Positions 4,255 to 14,524 of a DNA stretch of 64,000 bases are shown here, piece by piece. The position numbers and the translations under genes were made by a program. The notes below the pieces were generated by a model. That model made no database searches. It was not told the DNA's origin and saw nothing but the letters and a program-made list of their open reading frames with translations. Origin of the DNA: Nostoc sp. HK-01 (GTDB lineage: Bacteria > Cyanobacteriota > Cyanobacteriia > Cyanobacteriales > Nostocaceae); assembly GCA_003990705.1 (NCBI GenBank), contig AP018318.1:2111501-2175500 (forward strand), given 5' to 3'. Positions within the stretch are counted from its first letter, which is position 1. Each line of letters opens with the position of its first letter.

Positions 4255-4607
4255 ATATTTCGCTATTTTGGTAGTAGCAGATCGACTCAGCTAATCAGCA
4301 TTCAACTTGGATTTTTATGTCTTAGCCAAAATTTAGCAGTCAGTAACCAACAGATTACTTTCACTCTCAATTAGAAACTGAAAATTAAAAAATGTCTTTT
4401 AATTATTTCTCAGTCAAATTTTGTATTTTCCTCAAGAATCTAGCTGCTTTAATTGAGAGGAATTTATACCACCATGCAGATCAGCTTACTATCTATTATT
4501 AATAGGCAAGTGTAGATATACCCCTGACTATATTCATCCCCCAAATGCTGTATGCTTGTGCTTTGGTTTGAATCTGCCTGTAGATAGCTGCAATTTTGTC
4601 CTGATAA
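4255..4607. other. Intergenic region, AT-rich
   Basis: The 353 bases between the M16 operon and the 3' end of the comM fragment hold no convincing gene, tRNA or strong hairpin. They should contain the M16 promoter near the right-hand side of 4255 (minus strand), but I cannot point to a clear -10/-35 pair. Confidence 0.4.
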
Positions 4608-5489
4608 TCATAGCATTCTATCGATTGTGCGATACTGAATTGCTTCCGCTACATGATGAGATTGCAGGTCATCTTCTCCGGCTAAATCTGCAATAGTGCG
4701 GGCAACTTTGAGAATGCGATCGCTCGCCCTCGCTGATAAACCTAATTTATTGATTGCTGCTTCTAATAAAGAACGACTAGCATCATCTAACTTGCACCAT
4801 AGTGGCAGATGTCGGCTTTGCATTTGAGCATTGCAACGCAGATTTGTTTCTGTTTGGAAGCGGTGAATACTGCGATCGCGTGCTTGTTGAACTCTTTCCC
4901 TGACAGATTTTGATGACTCTCCTGTGGGTTGTTGAGTAATTTCTTCTGGTTTGAGGCGATTCACCGCCACCTGCAAATCAATTCTGTCCATCAACGGCCC
5001 AGAAAGCTTTGCCCAATATTGTTCTCTTTGTCTGGGCGAACAGGTACACTGTTGAATGGTATCGCCGTAGTAACCGCAAGGACAGGGATTAGTACTCGCC
5101 ACTAAAGTAAACTGCGCGGGAAAAACCACAGATTGTTTTGTGCGGGAAATGGTCACATAACCATCTTCTAAAGGCTGACGCAGAAATTCTAAAACATCCC
5201 GTTTAAATTCCGTAAGTTCATCGAGAAAAAGTATACCACGATGAGATAACGAGATTTCCCCAGGACGGGGAAAACTACCACCACCAACCAAAGAAGGGCC
5301 GGATGCAGAATGGTGAGGACTGCGAAAAGGGCGATCGCGCACTAAAGAACCACGATTTTTTAATAATCCAGCGACAGAATGAATCCGAGTTACTTCCAAA
5401 GCTTCCGAAAATTCCAGCGGTGGTAAAATTCCAGATAAACGTCTAGCTAACATTGTTTTCCCACTTCCGGGAGGGCCGACAAATATCAA
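4608..5489 (-). pseudogene. comM: comM (YifB) 3' fragment, separated by a mobile element
   Basis: This is the C-terminal 294 codons of a YifB/ComM-type Mg-chelatase-like AAA+ ATPase, a helicase that aids branch migration during natural transformation. It begins exactly at LIFVGPPGSGKTMLARRL, the Walker A region, and continues through the Mg-chelatase core (SPHHSASGPSLVGGG, LSHRGILFLDELTEF as Walker B, STNPCPCGYYGD) to the C-terminal domain. A TAA codon stands directly before the first codon (5490-5492) and belongs to the inserted element. The missing 216 codons lie at 13453-14100 in the same orientation; together they give about 509 codons, the normal length. The TTG at 5487-5489 is an internal Leu codon, not a real start. 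Confidence 0.93.
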
Positions 5490-5500
5490 TTATCTATAGC
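5484..5500 (+). repeat. Left end: coupling sequence plus terminal inverted repeat
   Basis: TATCAA (5484-5489) encodes the Leu-Ile of the comM Walker A leader and is read as target sequence. TTATCTATAGC (5490-5500) is the element's left terminal inverted repeat, identical in complement to the right end. The first in-frame stop after the comM fragment falls inside this repeat. Confidence 0.75.
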
Positions 5501-5613
5501 TCTTAAAAACAATTCTTTAAAGTAAACAACAACAATATTGACACAGAGCCAGCCTCATCGTAGAATACTTACACAAAGCTTTTCCACAAAGTAATAAACG
5601 TCTACAAAGTATC

Positions 5614-6741
5614 GTGAAAGTACAAAGGGTACGTATCCCTAACAGCGATAAAATCACATGGACAGTTTTAGGTACTGACTATTTGCCAGTTGCTCCAATT
5701 GAGCAATTTTTAAGGTATTTAGAAAGTGTAGAGAGATCGCCCAATACGATTAGATCTTATGCTCACCATCTAAAGCTTTACTGGGAATACCTACAAGCGC
5801 ATAACCTAGATTGGACGCAAATGGGTGTCATTGAGCTTGCTGAATTCATGGCATGGCTTAGAAGTCCTAATCCCCAAGGAGTTTTATCAATTCAAGAGCA
5901 AGAAGCAAAGCGCACAGAATCAACAGTAAATCTGATTCTGACATCAATTTGTATGCTCTATGATTTTCATGAAAAAACAGGCAAGGTTCCGTACATTCCA
6001 CTTTATCGGTCACAGGTAATGCCTGGGCGGAAATACAAAGGCTTCCTGCACCATATCACTAAAAGTAAACTAGTCAGAACTCGTTTGCTCAAACTGAAAG
6101 AGCCAAAACGCTTACCCAAAACACTTTCTCCTGAGCAAGTAGAGGAATTAATTAATTCCTGCACTCGACTCAGAGATAAATTTCTACTTTGTTTGTTACA
6201 TGAAAGTGGTATGCGAATTGGACAAGCTTTGGGTTTAAGACATGAGGATATTCATTCTTGGGATAATTTAATTAAAGTCACTCCCAAAGACAACAATGCC
6301 AATGGCGCTCGTGCAAAAACTAAGTCTTCTTATAATCTTCATGTCTCAAAAGAATTGATGGGCTTATATAGCAAATATCTGCAAGATGAATTCATGGAGA
6401 TACTTGGCAACGACCTTAGCGATTATGTCTTTGTCAATCTGTGGGACGGAAGGATTGGTTCTCCTATGACTTATAGCAATGTTATGGATTTGTTCAATCG
6501 CCTCAAAAGGAAAACTGGTATCGCTGTTCACCCCCACATGTTTCGCCATACTCATGCCACAGAACTAATTCGTCAGGGTGTAGGCATGGCTTATGTGCAA
6601 AAAAGATTAGACCATGCCAGCATTCAAACCACGTTCAACACCTATGTTCATGTCAACGACGAAGACATGAAAAGAGAATTGAGCCAATACTTAAATAATG
6701 GATATGATACAGAATCAGCAGACAATTCAGACACAGAATAA
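5614..6741 (+). CDS. Tyrosine recombinase, TnpA-like (Tn554 family)
   Basis: A 375-residue phage-integrase-type recombinase starting with GTG. The N-terminal SAM-like core-binding domain is about residues 25-125 (SPNTIRSYAHHLKLYWEYL). The catalytic domain (about 170-350) has R201 (GMRIGQALGLRHED), H308 and R311 (HPHMFRHTHATEL), H334 (LDHASIQTT) and the nucleophile Y344 (NTYVHV). It is the first of three overlapping genes: its last 44 bases overlap the next reading frame, implying translational coupling. By analogy with Tn554 it would cut and join one pair of strand ends during site-specific insertion and excision at comM. It lies 124 bp inside the left end, the usual place for an element's own recombinase. 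Confidence 0.93.
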   Translation: MKVQRVRIPNSDKITWTVLGTDYLPVAPIEQFLRYLESVERSPNTIRSYAHHLKLYWEYLQAHNLDWTQMGVIELAEFMAWLRSPNPQGVLSIQEQEAKRTESTVNLILTSICMLYDFHEKTGKVPYIPLYRSQVMPGRKYKGFLHHITKSKLVRTRLLKLKEPKRLPKTLSPEQVEELINSCTRLRDKFLLCLLHESGMRIGQALGLRHEDIHSWDNLIKVTPKDNNANGARAKTKSSYNLHVSKELMGLYSKYLQDEFMEILGNDLSDYVFVNLWDGRIGSPMTYSNVMDLFNRLKRKTGIAVHPHMFRHTHATELIRQGVGMAYVQKRLDHASIQTTFNTYVHVNDEDMKRELSQYLNNGYDTESADNSDTE

Positions 6742-8299
6742 AGTTTACAAATTTGTTAATTGCCCAAGGTGCAAAAGTACTAGTTTTAGAAAAAATGGTA
6801 AAAATCCATCTGGCACTCAAATATATAAATGTAGCCAGTGTGGAAGAACTTTTACTCCAGATGCACCAAATTTAATTCAAGAAAATCATGAAATCGATGT
6901 CAATCCTAAATCTGAATATTCTAAAGATATTTGGGATTGTCGTGCATTGGGGGTTGAAGGGGGTGTAGGAAAATCTAGCTATAAGCTAAATTTTATTCCT
7001 ATTAAACAGAAATGGTTGAAAGAAACAGCAAAAACCTATTTAAAAGTCTGTTTGAGTTCTATCACATTTGCGTCTGTACAAGAAAAACTTTATTCAATCA
7101 GAAAATTATCAAAGTTCTTGGCAGAAAACTACCCAGATATTACTCCAGAAAATATAGATAGAGATATCATCACTGAGTACACAATATATTTGGCAGGTCA
7201 AAAATTAGCATCAAGTACCCGTTATAAGTGTATTAGCGATGCAAAGCTATTATTTGATGCTGCTTATCAATATCAATGGCTTGATGTCCGAAGGTATTTG
7301 GTTCGTCCGGAAGATTTCCCCAAGAAAGAAAAACGACTCCCTCGCTACATTCCAGAGGAAGTCATGCAGCAACTCAATCAATACCTAGATGATTTGGCAG
7401 AGCCAATAATGAGAATGGTATTGGTGCTGCAAGAGTGTGGGATGCGAATTTCAGAGCTAGTAAATCTCAATTTTGATTGTTTATTACAGGATAAGACTGG
7501 AGATTGGTTTTTAAAATATTACCAATTCAAGATGAAAAAGGAAATTACTATACCTATTTCAAGAGAGCTTGTCAGAGTTATTCAAGAGCAACAGAGATAC
7601 ATCCGTCAACATTTTACTCAAAAAGAATTTAACTGTTTATTCTGTGCAAATGTAGGGGCAGTTAGACCTAATTTTATTCCGTCCCCTCGTGTGATGATGC
7701 GGAAAACATTACCCAATCATCTTAACCGTTTAGCCAAGAGAAGAAATATTTGTGACAACTCTGGCAATTTGTGGCATTTTCAAAATCATGCTTTTCGGCA
7801 TACAGTAGGGACGCGAATGATAAATAATGGTGTTCCTCAGCATATTGTTCAGAGATATTTAGGGCATGAATCACCTAATATGACTTCTGTTTACGCTCAT
7901 ATTCACGACCAGACAATGAAAGAAGAAATTGCAAAGTTTCAAGGCAAGGTCGTGAATGTTGTGGGGCAAGTTGTCGAACCTAATGACGTACAAGCAGATA
8001 TATCTGACTTGCAATGGTTCAAACGAAATATTCAAGCGCAAGCATTACCAAACGGTTCTTGCGCTTTACCCATAATTTCTCAAGGATGTCCTCATGCCAA
8101 TGCTTGCTTGACTTGCACTCATTTTCGTACAACTGCCGAGTATTTGTCAGAGCATAGACAGCAGTTAGATCAGACTAACCAACTTCTTCAAAAAGCTGAG
8201 GCTAATGGCTGGGTGCGCCAAGTTGAAATGAATCAGAAGGTGAAATCCAACCTAGAAAAAATCATTGAAACATTGGAGGCAGATTCAAATGACGGTTGA
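6698..8299 (+). CDS. Zinc-finger tyrosine recombinase, TnpB-like (Tn554 family)
   Basis: A 533-residue second recombinase. An N-terminal zinc ribbon (C22-x2-C25 and C45-x2-C48, with GxxxYKCSQCGRTFTPD between and after) resembles the DNA-binding ribbon of IS1-type and other transposases. A core-binding domain follows (about 110-200), then the catalytic domain with R250 (ECGMRISELVNL), H364 and R367 (HAFRHTVGTR), H390 (YLGHESPNMTS) and Y399 (VYAHIHD). Near the C-terminus is a further cysteine cluster (C454, C464, C470, C473; GCPHANACLTC), seen in TnpB-type recombinases. It overlaps both neighbours. The start could be ATG 6698 or ATG 6704. Confidence 0.92.
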   Translation: MDMIQNQQTIQTQNKVYKFVNCPRCKSTSFRKNGKNPSGTQIYKCSQCGRTFTPDAPNLIQENHEIDVNPKSEYSKDIWDCRALGVEGGVGKSSYKLNFIPIKQKWLKETAKTYLKVCLSSITFASVQEKLYSIRKLSKFLAENYPDITPENIDRDIITEYTIYLAGQKLASSTRYKCISDAKLLFDAAYQYQWLDVRRYLVRPEDFPKKEKRLPRYIPEEVMQQLNQYLDDLAEPIMRMVLVLQECGMRISELVNLNFDCLLQDKTGDWFLKYYQFKMKKEITIPISRELVRVIQEQQRYIRQHFTQKEFNCLFCANVGAVRPNFIPSPRVMMRKTLPNHLNRLAKRRNICDNSGNLWHFQNHAFRHTVGTRMINNGVPQHIVQRYLGHESPNMTSVYAHIHDQTMKEEIAKFQGKVVNVVGQVVEPNDVQADISDLQWFKRNIQAQALPNGSCALPIISQGCPHANACLTCTHFRTTAEYLSEHRQQLDQTNQLLQKAEANGWVRQVEMNQKVKSNLEKIIETLEADSNDG

Positions 8300-9203
8300 G
8301 CGTAATATTGAGGGACTGCGCGACAATGCTCAAAGGAAACGCGAAGAGACAAGAGAAAAAGCAGAGCGAGGAATTCAGCAGCTAATTAGGGAAAAGCGAA
8401 CTATTAACTTTAACACAGTGGCAGAAGTTTCTGGAGTTAGCAAAGCTTGGCTCTATAAAGAACATGATACTAGATCTCAAATAGAACATCTCAGGCAGAA
8501 TCAAGCTCAATCACAGAAAGTGCCACCAAAGCAAAAAACCTCAGATGCCTCCAAAGATGCAATCATTAAAACCCTCAAAGAAAGAATTAAAAAAATTGAA
8601 GCTGAAAACAGAGGGTTGCGCGACCAGCACGAAGCGATTTATGGACGAATACTTCAAGCTTCGGAGATAGAGCATAAATTAGAAAGACTAGAAGCAGAAA
8701 ATGCCAAGTTAAGAAAGGAATTAGAAGAATGTCGTTCTCATTCACACAAATCTTCTGTGTCTAAAATATCTAACCTCCAATCTGTTTCCTCTAAAAAGAC
8801 AGGGAAAATTAGTGATGTCATTAAAAGCGAGTTAAACGCTTTAGGCATTGAACTAAACAGTACTCTTGTATCTAAGATAAAGAATGCAGAAGAAGATGTG
8901 GTTTTAAACGCAATTGAGGCATTAAAGGAGCAATTGCAGTATAAAGTAATTCCAAGTCCAGGAGGGTGGCTTGTTAAAGCAATTGATGGTGAGTGGAAGC
9001 CAAATAAACCCCTTGGTGAAACTCGTTCCGCAGATGTGTTCGCGGAGTGGTACGGACTGGCAAGAGAACAAGGAATTGTGACTGGAAGTCGGAAGGCAGA
9101 AGATGACTCTGTGTGGGTTCAAGAAAACACTGGTCAGTGGGTTCCGTTTGAAGAATTTTCGTCAAGATGGACAATTGAATATTTGCGATTAAAATCTAAA
9201 TAG
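8289..9203 (+). CDS. DUF6262/TnpC-like coiled-coil protein
   Basis: A 304-residue protein when started at ATG 8289, which has a TTGGAGG ribosome site at 8274-8280 and overlaps the tnpB-like gene by 11 bp. The N-terminus (NIEGLRDNAQRKREETREKA, then INFNTVAEVSGVSKAWLYKE) is the charged helix plus helix-turn-helix typical of DUF6262 proteins that follow paired tyrosine recombinases. A long Glu/Lys-rich coiled coil follows (about 80-150). The C-terminal third (about 190-300) has no family I recognise. In Tn554 the third protein influences insertion orientation and efficiency rather than catalysing; a similar accessory role is inferred. Confidence 0.8.
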   Translation: MTVERNIEGLRDNAQRKREETREKAERGIQQLIREKRTINFNTVAEVSGVSKAWLYKEHDTRSQIEHLRQNQAQSQKVPPKQKTSDASKDAIIKTLKERIKKIEAENRGLRDQHEAIYGRILQASEIEHKLERLEAENAKLRKELEECRSHSHKSSVSKISNLQSVSSKKTGKISDVIKSELNALGIELNSTLVSKIKNAEEDVVLNAIEALKEQLQYKVIPSPGGWLVKAIDGEWKPNKPLGETRSADVFAEWYGLAREQGIVTGSRKAEDDSVWVQENTGQWVPFEEFSSRWTIEYLRLKSK

Positions 9204-9230
9204 CAGAGTTATCTGTTTAAAAATTTAAAA

Positions 9231-9418
9231 GTAAGAATTCTTACCTCTTAGAAAATAGCACAATCCTCCTAATTAGATTTTTAATTAGGAGGATCATTCT
9301 ATTTAGAAAATAAAATACAAGAAATCTCTTAATTTAAAAATAAAAGGTAAGGATTCTTACAATTAGATTTTAAATAGGAGAATCCTCCTAATTAGATTTT
9401 AAATGGGAGAATTCTCCC
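9231..9418 (+). repeat. Palindrome and tandem-repeat array before the KilA-N gene
   Basis: This 188-bp stretch is built from related symmetrical units. GTAAGAATTCTTAC (9231-9244) is a perfect palindrome with a near copy at 9347-9360. A hairpin with 13-bp perfect arms (9263-9275 and 9282-9294, ATCCTCCTAATTA) and a 6-base loop lies between them. Two 29-bp tandem units (9361-9389 and 9390-9418) share AATTAGATTTTAAAT and each ends in a palindrome of the form GGAGAATyCTCC. The array sits directly before the chosen KilA-N start (9454). It reads like an operator cluster or recombinase accessory-site array; which of these is not decidable from sequence. Confidence 0.75.
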
Positions 9419-9453
9419 ATTTAAAATTATTAAACGCAACAAAATATTTTATT

Positions 9454-11496
9454 ATGACTCTAACAAAAATTTCTTACGAGCTTTACGGTATTATCGTACA
9501 ACAACGTATTTGCGATGGATATGTTAATGCAACGCAATTATGCAAAGCACATAAGGAAATAACTGGAGAAGAAAAACTTCCAAAGTATTGGCTAATACTT
9601 GAGTCAACTAAAGATATTTTAATCAAGCTTTCTGAGATAGTATCTATGCCTGTGGAGAGCTTAGTAGAAGTGACTCAAGGTAAATATGGTGGAACATGGC
9701 TACATCCACGGCTGGTTGTTAGATTCACGATGTGGTTGAATAATGATTTCTCTCTTCAAGTTGAGGATTGGGTTCAAAAATGGTTTTCGGCTGAACAGAA
9801 GCCAGTTCAGATTTCATTTAGCGAATTAAATAGTCTTATGGGGTTGCTGGATACTGCTATACAAGCAGCAGAAATGACCCATACAATTCTGCATGGTTTA
9901 ACATACTTTCTTAATAGGGCTAGAGAAAATCTAGAAACAATTAGAAGCCTTGAAGATGCGGAAACTATAGTTAATAACAGTATTTATCAGCAGCAAATAG
10001 AGAAGGCGGAAAATAGACTTTACAATTTAGCTGATAGAGTAGAAAAGCTTAGGTTGATGAATTCTTCTCAGAAAAATGAAGTTATACATACAATTAACTT
10101 AGATATAAATGATTACCAAAAAAGTAAAGAAAGCGTGCTGGATATTTGCAGCCAAACACACAAATCTAAAATACTTGATTTTCTATCTATTCAACCTGAC
10201 ATAGCTTCTAATGGAACTGCACCAGTTTTATTTGAATTTAATCAGAATATATTAACGATTTTTTATACAAAACTAAATGCACAAATTAAATCTATACTTA
10301 ATGGTATTGATAATCATATTCAAGATAGCATCATAATTGATTACTGTTATTTAAATTCTCAAATTTTAAATGTAAACAATAAAAATATTAGTTTAGAAAT
10401 ACAGCAAGGAAAATTATGTTTAAATATTGATAATGGCTCCTATGTAGAGACTGTAGTGATACCACCTGTTGACGCTACCGATTTCATCCCTTGGGATGTC
10501 GATGATTTCATAGCAGATGACGTACTAGCTGAAATTGATGAAACAGCAGTTAGACAACTTAGATTTAAAGCAATTTTCAACAAAACTCATATCAGCAACG
10601 AAAACTTATATTGGGACGCTCTTGTTTATCTAAATCACATACAATTCATTCATGAAACAGCAAATGTTGTGTGTTCTTGCATGGTACCACTAAAACAAAA
10701 TATAAACAGGAGAGACTGTTTTCGCTTTGACATACATGAAAATGTTATCGAAATCGCTAATAGTTTTAAGTACAGAAAAATGACAATCATGCTAGACTAT
10801 GGCATAAAAAAGGCATTAATCAATCTGGACAACAATGTTTATATACTTACATCAGGTATTAAAAAAGAGTTTTCTGGTTGTTATGGCAGTTGGACTTGCT
10901 ATGGTGGCATACATCACACTAAAGGTTATTTTGTAAATAAGAGAGATTTTTGTAGAGCATTAGAATATTTTGCCATTACTGGCTCAGAATATGTAAATTT
11001 AAACTTTCAAAGCAACAGAGTAGATATTAAAAGTGCTGATCAAGAAGTTGCAAACATTATTACCATTCGATATCAAGGTACCGTCAGTCGTAGTTACTGT
11101 TTAGCAGCAACAATTTTATTGAACATATTAAAGTTAGTTGATGCTGATGAAGTATGTTTTTATATACCCGCTATAGATGAAATTTCTTCTCATGAATTAC
11201 CCAATCTTGCTTATATAGGACATCTACACTATATAAATCCTTTGCACTCAAGATATTTTGTTTGGTATTCTATATTTGAAGCAATTGAGCTATCTGATGA
11301 AGTTCGCAACTCCAATCAAGTCTTGCATGAAGCAGAAGCTCCTATGGAATTCAAACCCATTTATTGGAAGATAAAGGAAGGAAAAAACTGGGATAAGTTG
11401 TCGTCTTCACACATCCTAGAAGCAGTACAAGAAGAAGAAAACCAGAAATTTTGTCAGCTTCAGCTTAAGATAATTCCTCCATCCGACCAGGAATAG
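9454..11496 (+). CDS. KilA-N domain protein with unclassified, possibly clamp-like C-terminus
   Basis: A 680-residue protein from ATG 9454; an upstream ATG at 9403 lies inside the repeat array and is less likely. Residues 1-115 are a KilA-N domain (ISYELYGIIVQQR, CDGYVNATQLCKAHKE, WLHPRLVVRFTMWLN, VEDWVQKWF), a DNA-binding module common in phages and mobile elements. Residues about 120-200 are helical. The remaining 480 residues match no family I know for certain. Around 490-570 the order LxIxSAxxE, then IxIxYxG, then a hydrophobic helix and LVDADEVCFYI resembles the last domain of bacterial beta sliding clamps; this is a weak pattern match. Base composition is AT-rich, in keeping with transferred cargo. 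Function unknown. Confidence 0.8.
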   Translation: MTLTKISYELYGIIVQQRICDGYVNATQLCKAHKEITGEEKLPKYWLILESTKDILIKLSEIVSMPVESLVEVTQGKYGGTWLHPRLVVRFTMWLNNDFSLQVEDWVQKWFSAEQKPVQISFSELNSLMGLLDTAIQAAEMTHTILHGLTYFLNRARENLETIRSLEDAETIVNNSIYQQQIEKAENRLYNLADRVEKLRLMNSSQKNEVIHTINLDINDYQKSKESVLDICSQTHKSKILDFLSIQPDIASNGTAPVLFEFNQNILTIFYTKLNAQIKSILNGIDNHIQDSIIIDYCYLNSQILNVNNKNISLEIQQGKLCLNIDNGSYVETVVIPPVDATDFIPWDVDDFIADDVLAEIDETAVRQLRFKAIFNKTHISNENLYWDALVYLNHIQFIHETANVVCSCMVPLKQNINRRDCFRFDIHENVIEIANSFKYRKMTIMLDYGIKKALINLDNNVYILTSGIKKEFSGCYGSWTCYGGIHHTKGYFVNKRDFCRALEYFAITGSEYVNLNFQSNRVDIKSADQEVANIITIRYQGTVSRSYCLAATILLNILKLVDADEVCFYIPAIDEISSHELPNLAYIGHLHYINPLHSRYFVWYSIFEAIELSDEVRNSNQVLHEAEAPMEFKPIYWKIKEGKNWDKLSSSHILEAVQEEENQKFCQLQLKIIPPSDQE

Positions 11497-11625
11497 ATAG
11501 CATTCATAGTTTTTTGTATAAACTTTTTCAGAAATACCCTTGCTATTCAAGAAACGAGGTGTTACCTTGTAGAGACTAAGGGAAAAGATGTATACACAAA
11601 CTAATCCCTTGCAAAACTTATAACT

Positions 11626-11668
11626 AAACCCTGACCGGGGAATTCCTGGCCAGGGTTTTTGGTTTTTT
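11626..11668 (+). terminator. Strong hairpin with T-run: terminator or leader attenuator
   Basis: Bases 11626-11639 pair with 11645-11658 (AAACCCTG, mismatch, then CCGGG against CCTGG) around a short loop, followed by TTTTTGGTTTTTT. A second weaker inverted repeat (AAGGGA/TCCCTT) lies at about 11578-11610. The hairpin stands after the KilA-N gene and only about 10 bp before the next gene's ribosome site (AGGAGG), so it may end the KilA-N transcript or attenuate the small gene. Confidence 0.75.
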
Positions 11669-11677
11669 AGGAGGATT

Positions 11678-11869
11678 ATGGCTACGACAAAAGAAACTCT
11701 TGAGCATCAACTAAACATAAGACTATCTGAAGAAGAAAAACAAGCCTTGGAAATGGTTGCTCAAGCTACTGGACAAAGCAAAACGGCTTTAGCTCGTTCT
11801 TTGATTAAACCGACATTATTAGCAGCTATGTCTGTTATGCAGTTGCAAAATGTTGGGCTAAGTAGCTAA
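11678..11869 (+). CDS. Small ribbon-helix-helix-like protein
   Basis: A 63-residue protein with a very good ribosome site (AGGAGG ending 7 bases before ATG). The middle (LNIRLSEEEKQALEMVAQATG followed by SKTALARSLIKP) follows the strand-helix-helix pattern of Arc/MetJ-type regulators: a short beta-strand with alternating residues, then two helices. The hydrophobic tail (LLAAMSVMQL) is unusual. It may control the element's genes or be the antitoxin-like half of a pair, but no toxin is adjacent. Confidence 0.65.
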   Translation: MATTKETLEHQLNIRLSEEEKQALEMVAQATGQSKTALARSLIKPTLLAAMSVMQLQNVGLSS

Positions 11870-11896
11870 ATTTTTATTTTTACTACTTAGCTTCGT

Positions 11897-11964
11897 GGGT
11901 GATGCATGGTGCCAGACTAGTCTCCTAAACTGCGTGCTGGAGGGTTCAATTCCCTCATCATCCA
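11897..11964 (+). tRNA. Degenerate tRNA-Arg(CCU)-like sequence with minimal D arm
   Basis: The acceptor stem is seven pairs (GGGTGAT 11897-11903 with ATCATCC 11957-11963, one G-T pair) and is followed by discriminator A. The T arm is perfect (GAGGG/CCCTC around TTCAATT, 11940-11956). The anticodon loop CTCCTAA (11922-11928) has U33 and A37-A38, giving anticodon CCU; its stem has four pairs, one G-T. The D arm is only about 13 bases and cannot form a normal stem-loop, so the whole is 67 bases plus A. No CCA is encoded. It may be a decayed tRNA gene, a tRNA-like decoy, or a relic attachment site. It is cargo of the comM element. Confidence 0.6.
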
Positions 11965-12068
11965 ACATGATATTTATAACACTATATGCTAAAAAAATCC
12001 GACTATTGCCTTTCTTTACAATTAGTCTTTTAGTTTTGAATTTAATTTAAATCAGCTAATTGCAACGC

Positions 12069-12590
12069 CTATGCAGCTTGATTAGGTTGCGCCTTGGCTC
12101 TACGCTTAAAGTATTCAATATCGATAACTTTAGAGTTTTGCGCTACTTCCCAAATTTCATTAACAATATCTTGTAAAGCAGGAACGACTAATAGTGTATA
12201 TTGTCCTACTCCTTTACCTTGGCGATCTGCAATTTTAAGTGCTGAAATTCTTTCAGTAAAGTTCGACCAATTGTAATCTATCCAAAAAACTTCATCATTA
12301 AGAGCTACTATCTGCTTATCTCTTAAGCTTTTGTCAATTTGATATTCTTCAAAGTAATCCAGGATCTTTCTAATGACTTGGAGTGATGTCGTCTCCCTGA
12401 GATTGCGTATTGCTCTAACTTCTAAAATTTGTGACCAATTGTAATAAACGTCGGGTTTTTTCTTCCCATTCCACTCCCGCACAGGCTCAATCAAACCTGA
12501 ACGCTCAAGATACTGTAACTGATTGGATGTCGCTCCAGTCAGTTCCATTGTCTCTCGTCTAGTGAATTGGTCGATTATAGCCATCTTCAA
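12069..12590 (-). CDS. MerR-like winged-helix regulator
   Basis: A 173-residue protein with an N-terminal MerR-type DNA-binding region (FTRRETMELTGATSNQLQYLERSGLI, then a wing with YYNWSQILEVRAIRNLRE). It continues with a dimer-helix-like segment but lacks the cysteine motifs of metal-sensing MerR proteins. It is the only minus-strand gene within the element and lies between the tRNA-like sequence and the yjzC-like gene, so it may control element genes or act as an excisionase-like factor; this is inference. Start chosen as MKMAII; M3 is also possible. Confidence 0.75.
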   Translation of the reverse strand: MKMAIIDQFTRRETMELTGATSNQLQYLERSGLIEPVREWNGKKKPDVYYNWSQILEVRAIRNLRETTSLQVIRKILDYFEEYQIDKSLRDKQIVALNDEVFWIDYNWSNFTERISALKIADRQGKGVGQYTLLVVPALQDIVNEIWEVAQNSKVIDIEYFKRRAKAQPNQAA

Positions 12591-12647
12591 TAAAAGAATG
12601 TATTCAAACCCACAAAAAAGAATATATTTGTTAGCATGGTTGTCAAC

Positions 12648-12680
12648 GCATGAGCTAAGTGCAAGTTAGCTCATGCTGGT
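12648..12680 (+). promoter_or_regulatory. 11-bp perfect hairpin in the leader of the yjzC-like gene
   Basis: GCATGAGCTAA (12648-12658) pairs with 12666-12676 across a 7-base loop and is followed by TGGTTTTTAA. It lies between two diverging genes and 30 bp before the yjzC-like start, so on the plus strand it would form in the leader and could act as an attenuator. Confidence 0.6.
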
Positions 12681-12706
12681 TTTTAATTCAATAATGGAGT
12701 TTAACC

Positions 12707-12880
12707 ATGTCATACCGTCCCGGACAGTTAGTTCCCACAAGTGGTCAATATGCAGTTATTGATCCGTATGGGCGAAATACAGGTTATGAAGTTACGGCAG
12801 TCAAAGGAGAACATTTTCCGCCAACTTCTAGCCCTGGTTATAGCTTTCGTCTGGCTGACAGAACGAAGCACAGAGGTTAA
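12707..12880 (+). CDS. YjzC-like small protein
   Basis: A 57-residue protein not long enough for usual ORF cut-offs. The order RPGQLVPTSGQYAVID, GYEVTAVKGEHFPPT, PGYSFRLADRTKH fits the short YjzC family known from Bacillus and widespread in other bacteria, whose function is unknown. The start ATG is preceded by a usable AATGGAGT ribosome site. It is followed by a good terminator at 12931-12965, so it is probably a single-gene unit within the element. Confidence 0.8.
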   Translation: MSYRPGQLVPTSGQYAVIDPYGRNTGYEVTAVKGEHFPPTSSPGYSFRLADRTKHRG

Positions 12881-12930
12881 TCCTATTCTACCTTTCTTAT
12901 TTACTAAGTAAAGGTTGATTAACTTTAATT

Positions 12931-12965
12931 CAGGGACGGAGTGTTTAAAACTCTGTTCCTGCTTT
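12931..12965 (+). terminator. Rho-independent terminator after the yjzC-like gene
   Basis: CAGGGACGGAGT pairs with ACTCTGTTCCTG (12931-12961, two to three G-T pairs) and is followed by CTTTT. Confidence 0.7.
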
Positions 12966-13034
12966 TAGGTGCTTGTAAGGATATAGGTAGCGAGATAGTG
13001 AAATAGTTTCAAGCATTTGATCTAGAAATGAATT

Positions 13035-13373
13035 ATGCCTCTATATCTGATAACCAGTCTATTTGACGAAGGAATTAACCCCTCTAACTTCCGAGTGGTT
13101 GAAGCAGATTCAAAGCTAGATATTGCATCTCATATATTGTCTTATCCTCACCAATGGGAAAGATTTCTTCGTAGCTCTTTTCCAAGAGACTGGCGACACT
13201 TAGAATCGAACGTAGGTAGTCTTTGGGATTGCGTGCAAGCTCAAAGCATGACATCTGAAAGATTGCTGGAGCTAATTGATATGACTAGGGTGGATGGAGA
13301 TTCTGGAACTCAGTTAGCAATTCATGAAATCACTGTTCAGTTCCTAAGTGACATAAATACTAAATTCTATTAA
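13035..13373 (+). CDS. Hypothetical protein (element cargo)
   Basis: A 112-residue protein of unknown function: MPLYLITSLFDEGINPSNFRVVEAD at the start, then a segment rich in Trp and Arg (HQWERFLRSSFPRDW) and an acidic C-terminal helix region. No signal peptide, no membrane segment, no cysteine motif. It is the last gene before the element's right end, which lies 63 bp downstream. I recognise no family. Confidence 0.6.
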   Translation: MPLYLITSLFDEGINPSNFRVVEADSKLDIASHILSYPHQWERFLRSSFPRDWRHLESNVGSLWDCVQAQSMTSERLLELIDMTRVDGDSGTQLAIHEITVQFLSDINTKFY

Positions 13374-13422
13374 GGCTACGTTGTAGACATATCTACGATG
13401 TAAAATATAGTCCCAAAGAGAA

Positions 13423-14100
13423 TTACAGCCATTTGGCTATAGATAATTTTGAATTATGTCCGCCAGCAGCCGCAATTTCTAAAGCACGCCGACCATGAGC
13501 TTGTCCTTTAACATCATGTAAATCTGCATTAGAATAAGAGACTTGTACTGACTCAACTACATCATGTATCTTTACAGGTTGGTAACGTCCAGGATTATTT
13601 AATAAATCAACTACTTCCGATATACTTTGACAACCATAAACAGCCAATCCTTTTACTACAGCCGCTTCTTGGGCATTGTCAGCCGGGACAACTAAACCCG
13701 TAATTCCCATTTTTTGGGCAGTAGCAGCGATGGGTAAAACCCCAGCCACCGGGCGCAGACTCCCATCTAGTGAAACTTCACCGAGGAATAGATAATCACC
13801 CAATAAATCAGCATTAATTTGCTCAGAAGCCGCCAAAATACCCACACTAATCGGCAAATCAAAACAAGGGCCTTCCTTGCGTAAATCAGCCGGAGTCAAG
13901 TTAATCACGATTTTCCGCATCGGAAAAGCAAAACCAGCATTTTTTAAGGTAGCCTTCACCCTCTCTTTCGATTCCTGAACCGCGCTATCTGGAAGCCCCA
14001 AGACAATAATTCCTGGTAATCCCCCCGATACATCGACTTCCACCCCCACTTTTACCGCATCGATACCAACAATTGATGCACTCCAGACTCTCGCCAGCAT
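13423..14100 (-). pseudogene. comM: comM (YifB) 5' fragment, separated by a mobile element
   Basis: The first 216 codons (to AAGGHN at 13453) are the N-terminal Lon-protease-like S5 domain of YifB/ComM: MLARVWSASIVGIDAVKVGVEVD, GLPGIIVLGLPDSAVQESKERV, NLTPADLRKEGPCFDLPISVG, FLGEVSLDGSLRPVAGVLP. The last nine codons before TAA are element sequence. The fragment lacks the whole ATPase domain and should not work alone. It keeps its own start and promoter region in the 76-bp gap to the diverging HIT gene. The rest of the gene is at 4608-5489. Confidence 0.93.
13436..13452 (+). repeat. Right end: terminal inverted repeat plus coupling sequence
   Basis: GCTATAGATAA (13436-13446) is the exact complement of the left end. 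TTTTGA (13447-13452) sits where comM should encode Leu-Ile and instead encodes Ser-Lys; it is read as a 6-bp coupling sequence brought from a previous site. comM sequence resumes at 13453. Confidence 0.72.
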
Positions 14101-14176
14101 TATTTTATTCCTTAGTCATTAGTCATCCGTCCGTCTTATTATTGACAATTGGCAAATGACAAATAACAAATGACCA

Positions 14177-14524
14177 ATGACTAATCAAGACACAATTTTT
14201 AGTAAGATTATTCGTCGGGAAATTCCCGCCAATATCGTTTATGAGGATGATTTAGCTTTAGCGTTTACAGATGTTAATCCGCAAGCGCCAGTTCATATCC
14301 TCGTCATTCCCAAAAAACCCCTAGCTAAATTAGCTGAGGCGGAAACTCAAGATGCAGCTTTGTTAGGACATCTATTATTAACCGCCAAGCGTGTAGCCGC
14401 AGAAGCTGGTTTAACAAATGGTTATCGTGTTGTCATCAATACCGATGCTGATGCTGGTCAAACTGTCTTCCATTTACATCTGCATATTTTAGGAGGAAGA
14501 CCAATGGCTTGGCCTCCTGGGTAA
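14177..14524 (+). CDS. HIT family (HinT-like) nucleotide hydrolase
   Basis: A 115-residue protein with the full histidine-triad motif HLHLHILGG near the C-terminus and the usual leader IFSKIIRREIPANIVYEDD. HinT proteins hydrolyse adenosine nucleotide phosphoramidates in the cytoplasm. It diverges from the comM 5' fragment; the short gap between them is filled by heptamer-type repeats (variants of AATGAC). Confidence 0.95.
   Translation: MTNQDTIFSKIIRREIPANIVYEDDLALAFTDVNPQAPVHILVIPKKPLAKLAEAETQDAALLGHLLLTAKRVAAEAGLTNGYRVVINTDADAGQTVFHLHLHILGGRPMAWPPG

Follow-up and report, generated by a model that had tools for sequence, protein, structure and literature searches.

Split comM gene of Nostoc sp. 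HK-01

The 64,000-nucleotide stretch of Nostoc sp. HK-01 analyzed here (the window; contig AP018318.1, positions 2,111,501 to 2,175,500) contains a comM gene (yifB; TIGR00368) that is split in two, just before its Walker A motif, by a Tn554-like mobile element (Table 1). The split gene and its insert are confirmed observations. Both comM pieces lack stops and gaps and are 97 to 98% identical to an intact comM of the same genus. A sequence-only reading of this DNA had suggested comparison with relatives, and comM proved to be a single open frame of 510 to 514 amino acids in seven of the 10 other genomes of the genus; in the remaining three it is broken elsewhere (G001 and G003) or absent (G009). 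The insertion core corresponds to comM codons 217 and 218, and the GPPGSGKT loop begins at codon 221; the insertion thus immediately precedes the loop, whereas that reading had placed it at the Walker A codons themselves. Joining the flanks through the left hexamer yields a ComM of 509 amino acids (HN-LI-FVGPPGSGKT), the length that had been anticipated, in the frame of intact relatives. Joining through the right hexamer likewise yields 509 amino acids, but with LI changed to SK (HN-SK-FVGPPGSGKT). Because the 74 uninterrupted Walker A sites (distinct contexts) encode LI (63 sites), LV (9 sites), or VI (2 sites), the left hexamer is the native comM sequence.

The ends of the insert are perfect 11-bp inverted repeats, and its tnpA-tnpB-DUF6262 genes adjoin the comM 3' piece and are transcribed opposite to comM. 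As in Tn554, tnpA, tnpB, and tnpC lie together at one end, here as two overlapping Phage_integrase genes followed by a DUF6262 gene in the tnpC position, and two tyrosine recombinases and site-specific insertion are further likenesses. TnpA shares 43% identity over 96% with copies on Staphylococcus/Enterococcus plasmids (recorded as "tyrosine-type recombinase"); its homologues occur in 179 plasmid records, all at <60% identity, from many genera, including Streptomyces, Rhodococcus, Nostoc, and Calothrix. The target is not duplicated, and 6-bp coupling hexamers flank the element, with the native one on the tnpA side (this is less certain for the relative in genome G447). The ends, the hexamers, and tnpABC uphold the earlier proposal of a Tn554-like element with exact ends and a 6-bp coupling sequence. 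Tn554 itself inserts in radC (att554), whereas the target here is the Walker A region of comM, and relatives use recQ or a PLD-HhH gene; radC insertion defines Tn554 and not the wider family. The hosts differ as well, being cyanobacterial here, while only Staphylococcus and Enterococcus are named as reported hosts of Tn554 in PubMed Central (PMC) article PMC10214605 (here and below, statements on cited papers apply to the portions of their text that were available).

The element might be an immobile relic and comM a pseudogene. The window genome holds no second copy (other TnpA matches are 28 to 32% identical), and one such relic does exist elsewhere, in the comM of genome G151. Nevertheless, the tnpA, tnpB, and tnpC frames are open, the ends are intact, and the residues that we take to be catalytic in TnpA (R201, H308, R311, H334, and Y344) are invariant in all three aligned TnpA sequences. 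In addition, the ratio of nonsynonymous to synonymous divergence (dN/dS) of tnpB between the window genome (G000) and G117, introduced below, is 0.09, and a dead element is therefore considered very improbable.

Table 1. Features of the split comM locus (positions within the window)
Feature	Coordinates	Strand	Remarks
comM 3' part, codons 217-509	4608..5489	-	Walker A and Walker B; TIGR00368, 446 bits; codons 217-509 at 4611-5489(-)
Left (TnpA-side) hexamer TATCAA	5484..5489	+	Native comM sequence
Tn554-like element, 7,957 bp	5490..13446	+	Start TTATCTATAGC at 5490, end GCTATAGATAA at 13446
Predicted sigma-70-like promoter before tnpA	5538..5566	+	TTGACA-17-TAGAAT; 1 found versus 0.9 expected in shuffles
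tnpA, tyrosine recombinase	5614..6741	+	375 amino acids; GTG start
tnpB, tyrosine recombinase	6698..8299	+	533 amino acids; N-terminal zinc ribbon; proposed target selector
tnpC-like gene, DUF6262	8265..9203	+	312 amino acids; TTG start; tnpC assignment by position
Cargo, KilA-N domain protein	9403..11496	+	697 amino acids
Cargo, MerR-type regulator	12069..12590	-
Cargo, open reading frame (ORF) of 112 amino acids	13035..13373	+	No family
Right hexamer TTTTGA	13447..13452	+	Foreign
comM 5' part, codons 1-216	13453..14100	-	ORF continues to 13423; TIGR00368, 282 bits

Same insertion site in other genomes

Insertion at codon 216/217, in the same orientation and with the same terminal TTATCT, was found in four genomes besides the window genome: Nostoc desertorum CM1-VF14 (G117, a metagenome-assembled genome), Calothrix rhizosoleniae SC01 (G040), Baaleninema simplex PCC 7105 (G353), and G447. 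The five genomes span three families, with G353 and G447 outside the window's family, and their recombinases are related. Sharing of codon, orientation, and related recombinases by five genomes of three families excludes chance.

The hexamers on the sides far from/near to TnpA, read on the comM strand, are TCAAAA/TTGATA in G000, TTGATT/TTGATT in G117, TAGATC/TTAATT in G040, TTAATT/TTAATT in G353, and TACCTG/TGCATC in G447. They are thus unequal in three elements and equal in two, and in G000 and G040 the hexamer next to TnpA is the native one. Strand-biased circularizing integrative elements (SEs) retain the native 6 bp at the integrase end and carry a 6-bp fingerprint at the far end (PMC10214605), an arrangement also seen in the window element. 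Under this SE/Tn554 rule, two of the five elements could previously have occupied a comM site whose hexamer was identical, and the right hexamer of the window element, TTTTGA, would be the fingerprint of its previous insertion site. A donor site matching TTTTGA was not found, and the hexamer encodes no Walker A variant present at the 74 comM sites.

comM as an insertion hotspot

comM is a hotspot for mobile elements in cyanobacteria. Among 217 genomes of the window's family it is interrupted in 15, and the elements responsible, which are of Tn554-like, GInt-like, and serine-recombinase types, occupy at least four different sites. Tn554-like elements occupy the Walker A site (G000, G117, and G040). 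The Walker B site carries either GInt-like elements with three recombinases (G003, G118, and G125, plus the G151 relic, a 2.6-kb insert in which TnpA is reduced to its first 128 residues) or serine-recombinase elements (G001, G050, G150, G178, G179, and G137). Codon 43 is used by serine-recombinase elements in G157 and, as a second interruption, in G137, and codon 89 is interrupted in G145, where no recombinase was found.

These cases come from 30 of the 217 genomes (the window genome and 29 others) picked by eye for a weaker best comM match, a procedure that splits near the gene ends could escape. The 15 not counted as interrupted comprise six with comM frameshifted (G116 and G208) or missing in large part (G025, G139, G212, and G213), six lacking a usable comM piece (G009, G030, G084, G091, G182, and G191), two with a break close to the 3' end of the gene and at, or not far from, the edge of a contig (G124 and G153), and one intact (G183). 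In four of the 15 interrupted genes (G040, G178, G179, and G145) the pieces are on separate contigs; the third piece of the G137 gene lies on a different contig, and no sequence for its codons 310 to 321 was found. As controls, lepA gave partial matches in two genomes (G158 and G188) and uvrB in one (G158), or perhaps two, as the G198 match is slightly weaker. The excess of comM interruptions over the pooled controls has a P value of 1.4e-5 (4.7e-5 with the doubtful G198 counted). When all nonintact cases are counted, including very weak or absent lepA (G155, G165, and G191) and uvrB (G031, G091, G119, and G177), comM is affected in 29 genomes, lepA in 5, and uvrB in 6 (P values of 9.6e-6 and 3.1e-5).

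A search of 388 genomes of the same order included 317 outside the family, of which 21 with weak comM matches were examined. Besides G353 and G447, the interruptions found there include a Tn554-like element at codon 283 (G287) and serine-recombinase cases in G223, G296, G394, G256, G412, and G235; no rate is given outside the family, because several assemblies are fragmented.

Other comM genes show further irregularities. In G001 (L018 and L082), both halves of the gene are on a single contig of 7.1 Mb, separated by ~1.67 Mb if that contig is circular, and the 5' half has a serine recombinase next to it; either the insert is extremely large or the locus was rearranged afterward. Separately from the split gene, additional diverged copies of the final 45 to 75 comM codons occur (L106, G178:C19, and G179:C138), as if another type of element used the comM 3' end and brought a replacement end. 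G009, G030, and G084 are listed as 99% complete, yet no comM piece was found in them, and they may have lost the gene. In the GInt-like Walker B elements (L019:8169-10829(-), L096, and L098), one recombinase has an extended array of zinc-ribbon repeats at its N terminus that may read the target; the internal repeat matches seen when G118 and G125 are compared suggest that the array varies, and dN/dS for this pair is 0.87 for TnpB and 0.96 for TnpC.

TnpB and its probable role in target choice

Targets were worked out for TnpA relatives with at least 63% identity, plus G287. Fourteen such relatives were found, including the window element, 13 of them through TnpA searches and one (G447) through comM alone. 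Thirteen lie in one of three genes, namely, comM (5), recQ (4), and a PLD-HhH nuclease-like gene (4), and one lies elsewhere; the share is 12 of 13 when G447 is left out and 11 of 12 when the window element is left out too. In the Hassallia relative, no recognizable gene was found in the flank of the element. recQ is entered at FGMGI..., which we take to be motif V, in Nostoc carneum and Xenococcus PCC 7305 and at Walker A (LPTG|GKS) in Kastovskya and Nodosilinea, and the PLD-HhH gene is entered at the HKD motif in G175 and G015 and at a second site in G117 and G026. The target gene was visible on both sides of the element in all five insertions in comM, in Kastovskya, in G175 and G015, and in the PLD copy of G117, and on one side, within the sequence covered, in the other four. 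The N. carneum RecQ passes the TIGR00614 cutoff, and the PLD gene passes the Pfam cutoffs for PLDc_2 and HHH_3. Since its scores of 41.5 bits for NucT (cutoff, 297) and of 54.8 of 152.35 bits and 44.0 of 53.1 bits for ComEA models fall short of the curated NCBI cutoffs, it is named only by its domains.

The TnpB tree groups the 13 known-target sequences by insertion site, whereas the TnpA and TnpC trees mix those from comM and recQ. In the TnpB tree, the five comM sequences form one clade (support, 100/99), as do the pairs from recQ motif V (100/99), recQ Walker A (97/92 with 18 sequences and 89/84 with 13), PLD site 1 (93/93 and 97/96), and PLD site 2 (100/100). In the TnpA and TnpC trees, G353 groups with Nodosilinea and G447 groups with Xenococcus (beside G040 in TnpA). 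In approximately unbiased (AU) tests, grouping of the comM sequences into one clade is rejected both for TnpA (P = 3.1e-4) and for TnpC (P = 1e-57), as is the grouping of each recQ pair for either protein (P values of 0.01 or less). Four target changes, the minimum, suffice on the 13-sequence TnpB tree, versus six for TnpA and seven for TnpC; label shuffles matched the observed count in 6, 1,150, and 7,907 of 20,000 trials, respectively. TnpB segments 1 to 120, 121 to 210, and 311 to 410 each need the minimum of four changes. From these trees, TnpB, mainly before residue ~410, probably selects the target and is exchanged between elements.

Proposed mechanism

The locus is best explained, with a probability of about 0.6, by site-specific insertion of a Tn554-like element at a target chosen by TnpB, a lasting event and not a programmed switch. 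The element has entered comM and leaves the gene inactive as the DNA now stands. TnpA, TnpB, and TnpC would insert a circular copy at the 6-bp core that immediately precedes the Walker A codons; after such a reaction, the TnpA side would retain the native 6 bp and the far side would receive the circle-borne 6 bp, which is the pattern observed. The first ~400 residues of TnpB (zinc ribbon, SAM-like, and catalytic domains) would mainly choose the target, and exchange of this part, suggested by the trees, would let elements with mixed TnpA and TnpC switch among comM, recQ, and the PLD-HhH gene. The insertion probably persists until recombination or decay removes it. The likeliest benefit would be protection, in that transformation or recombination could less readily remove an element that has hit these genes, and it is plausible that the element gains by disabling either process.

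Several points weigh against this interpretation. Neither G447 hexamer matches the corresponding codons of seven comM genes of its family (LI in six and LV in one), and the native-side rule is therefore uncertain in that element. The control counts were taken from genome tables only, more crudely than the comM count. With the nine comM and recQ sequences alone, the TnpB count was matched by 336 of 20,000 shuffles (by all of them for TnpA and TnpC), and TnpB segments 211 to 310 and 411 to 533 need five and six changes. Target groups are small (2 to 5 sequences), and the idea of a role for TnpB was framed after the trees were seen. The proposed function of TnpB and the insertion reaction are deduced from sequence comparison. 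The link of the PLD-HhH gene to DNA uptake is weak, given its below-cutoff matches to NucT and ComEA. NucT has been implicated in natural transformation of Helicobacter pylori (PMC5714352). Finally, the available main text on a Synechococcus elongatus competence screen does not mention ComM (PMC7125226), and ComM is absent from the required factors in the available parts of PMC7292380.

The sites could instead be neutral landing pads, in which recombinases recognize DNA that is conserved for catalytic motifs in common, dispensable genes and in which loss of function is incidental. This explanation is possible, if on balance doubtful. Table 1 of Hilton 2016 contains interrupted genes without an evident link to DNA uptake (PMC4874684), the insertion sites lie at or near conserved motifs (Walker A and Walker B of ComM, Walker A and motif V of RecQ, and HKD of the PLD protein), and several unrelated recombinases target such sites in comM. 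However, lepA and uvrB also carry P-loops, and just two and one or two partial matches, respectively, were seen for them among the 217 genomes. In addition, all three target genes are linked to DNA processing, although the sample is small and one of the links is weak.

Age, selection, and excision

The sequence-only reading had proposed that the element may be a reversible switch, perhaps tied to heterocyst formation. Excisable switches exist, for example, the nif elements of heterocysts and the comK prophages of Listeria, and precise exit from comM in some cells or conditions would restore competence or recombination. In favor of such a switch, excision leaving the native hexamer restores the comM frame exactly, the recombinase ORFs of the window element are open, and the comM pieces appear constrained: dN/dS between split comM and its nearest intact copy is 0.037 to 0.117 where computable (18 of 20 split genes; two were saturated), like that between intact copies (median, 0.066; range, 0.015 to 0.169; 190 pairs of 20 genes from 36 same-family loci). 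According to Hilton 2016, genes hit by elements that are never excised would be decaying (PMC4874684).

Nevertheless, intact pieces may just mean recent arrival. Synonymous divergence (dS) between G118 and G125 is 0.09 for TnpA versus 0.60 for comM, while between G178 and G179 it is 1.27 for the recombinase versus 0.14 for comM. As element and comM divergence disagree in these two pairs, repeated insertion can explain the intact comM pieces. Between G000 and G117, dS is 0.74 for TnpB, 1.56 for TnpA, 1.54 for TnpC, and 0.87 for comM. Given the two disagreeing pairs, most of the divergence may predate insertion; purifying selection as proof of excision was therefore rejected, and dN/dS is no firm guide to function after insertion.

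No foreign-hexamer excision scar was found at the 74 uninterrupted Walker A sites, a test that excision leaving the native hexamer would escape, and the 90 Walker B matches (FL in 85, FM in 4, and FA in 1; duplicate loci included) contained no clear scar. Furthermore, comM is frameshifted or largely missing in the six genomes noted above, and SEs, which share the 6-bp rule, form circles without yielding an empty donor site (PMC10214605). The same type of element occupies the same codon in G353 and G447, of other families. GTDB places heterocyst formers in one family, and on that basis we take these two organisms to be nonheterocystous; a heterocyst link as a requirement was accordingly rejected. 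Excision of the window element is possible but unsupported, the switch proposed earlier finds no support in view of the disagreeing divergences, the absence of scars, and the insertions outside the family, and a reversible switch is considered unlikely.

Cargo and competence

The MerR-type regulator has homologues in the G447 element (48% identity) and the Xenococcus PCC 7305 element (55%). PADLOC gave weak partial matches only for the window cargo, an Rfam search of positions 4500 to 14200 found nothing, and a search of viral contigs returned one remote recombinase (26%). Cargo of other comM elements includes defense genes. The G353 element carries RmrTA and ShosTA (RmrA, 396 bits; ShosA, 291 bits; ShosT, 149 bits; RmrT, 66 bits), two defense modules within comM, with ShosA being a DprA-family gene (L180:7463-8476(-)). 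The G117 element encodes a KilA-N protein that matches PDC-S13 (57 bits), the G447 element encodes a CoiA-like nuclease domain, and the GInt-like element of G003 carries type I methylase and specificity genes. Such cargo parallels CBASS and Zorya in comM of Acinetobacter (PMC11472951).

dprA and the ComEC N-terminal domain are present in all five Walker A hosts, so a competence pathway could exist to be disabled. Mobile elements have been proposed to break competence genes and thereby avoid removal (Croucher 2016; PMC4774983).

Relation to known systems and implications

The GInt-like Walker B elements of G003, G118, and G125 resemble GInt in having three recombinases and a TnpC-like gene, whereas the window element has two recombinases, and its host range differs from that of SE/GInt elements. 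Like the elements in nifD, hupL, fdxN, and other genes that are associated with heterocysts, those in comM are recombinase elements interrupting conserved cyanobacterial genes, but the comM type is not limited to the heterocyst-forming family and gives no sign of programmed excision. Table 1 of Hilton 2016 includes a phospholipase D gene and recQ, and comM is absent from its 22 interrupted ortholog groups and three further ones (PMC4874684, as available). AbaR/Tn7-like and other islands in comM of Acinetobacter, Aggregatibacter, and others are likewise mobile elements, some with defense genes, and support the earlier statement that comM is a known island target in Acinetobacter; their transposition machinery and host phylum differ (PMC4774983 and PMC11472951). 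No earlier report of comM interruption in cyanobacteria was found in literature searches covering comM, natural transformation, genomic islands, and cyanobacterial Tn554.

The transposition route of Tn554 is termed unresolved in PMC10214605, and nothing was seen in the available portions of that paper on which protein picks the target; elements that share a TnpA clade yet use different genes make this question testable. A more far-reaching proposal, that TnpB is an exchangeable target reader, with its first ~400 residues swapped like a specificity subunit, and that the insertions are a convergent attack on uptake and recombination genes, is tentative, though a real prospect. If it is true, a single stock of TnpA and TnpC could change between sites at Walker A of ComM or RecQ, motif V of RecQ, and either of two positions in the PLD-HhH gene, unrelated recombinase elements that hit comM would join in the convergent attack on host DNA uptake and recombination genes, and there would be a natural route to retargetable Tn554-type integration. 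Breakage of comM by mobile elements, known from Acinetobacter, Aggregatibacter, and others, is now extended to cyanobacteria, where several unrelated recombinases act at a few fixed codons of comM, which opens a test of element protection.

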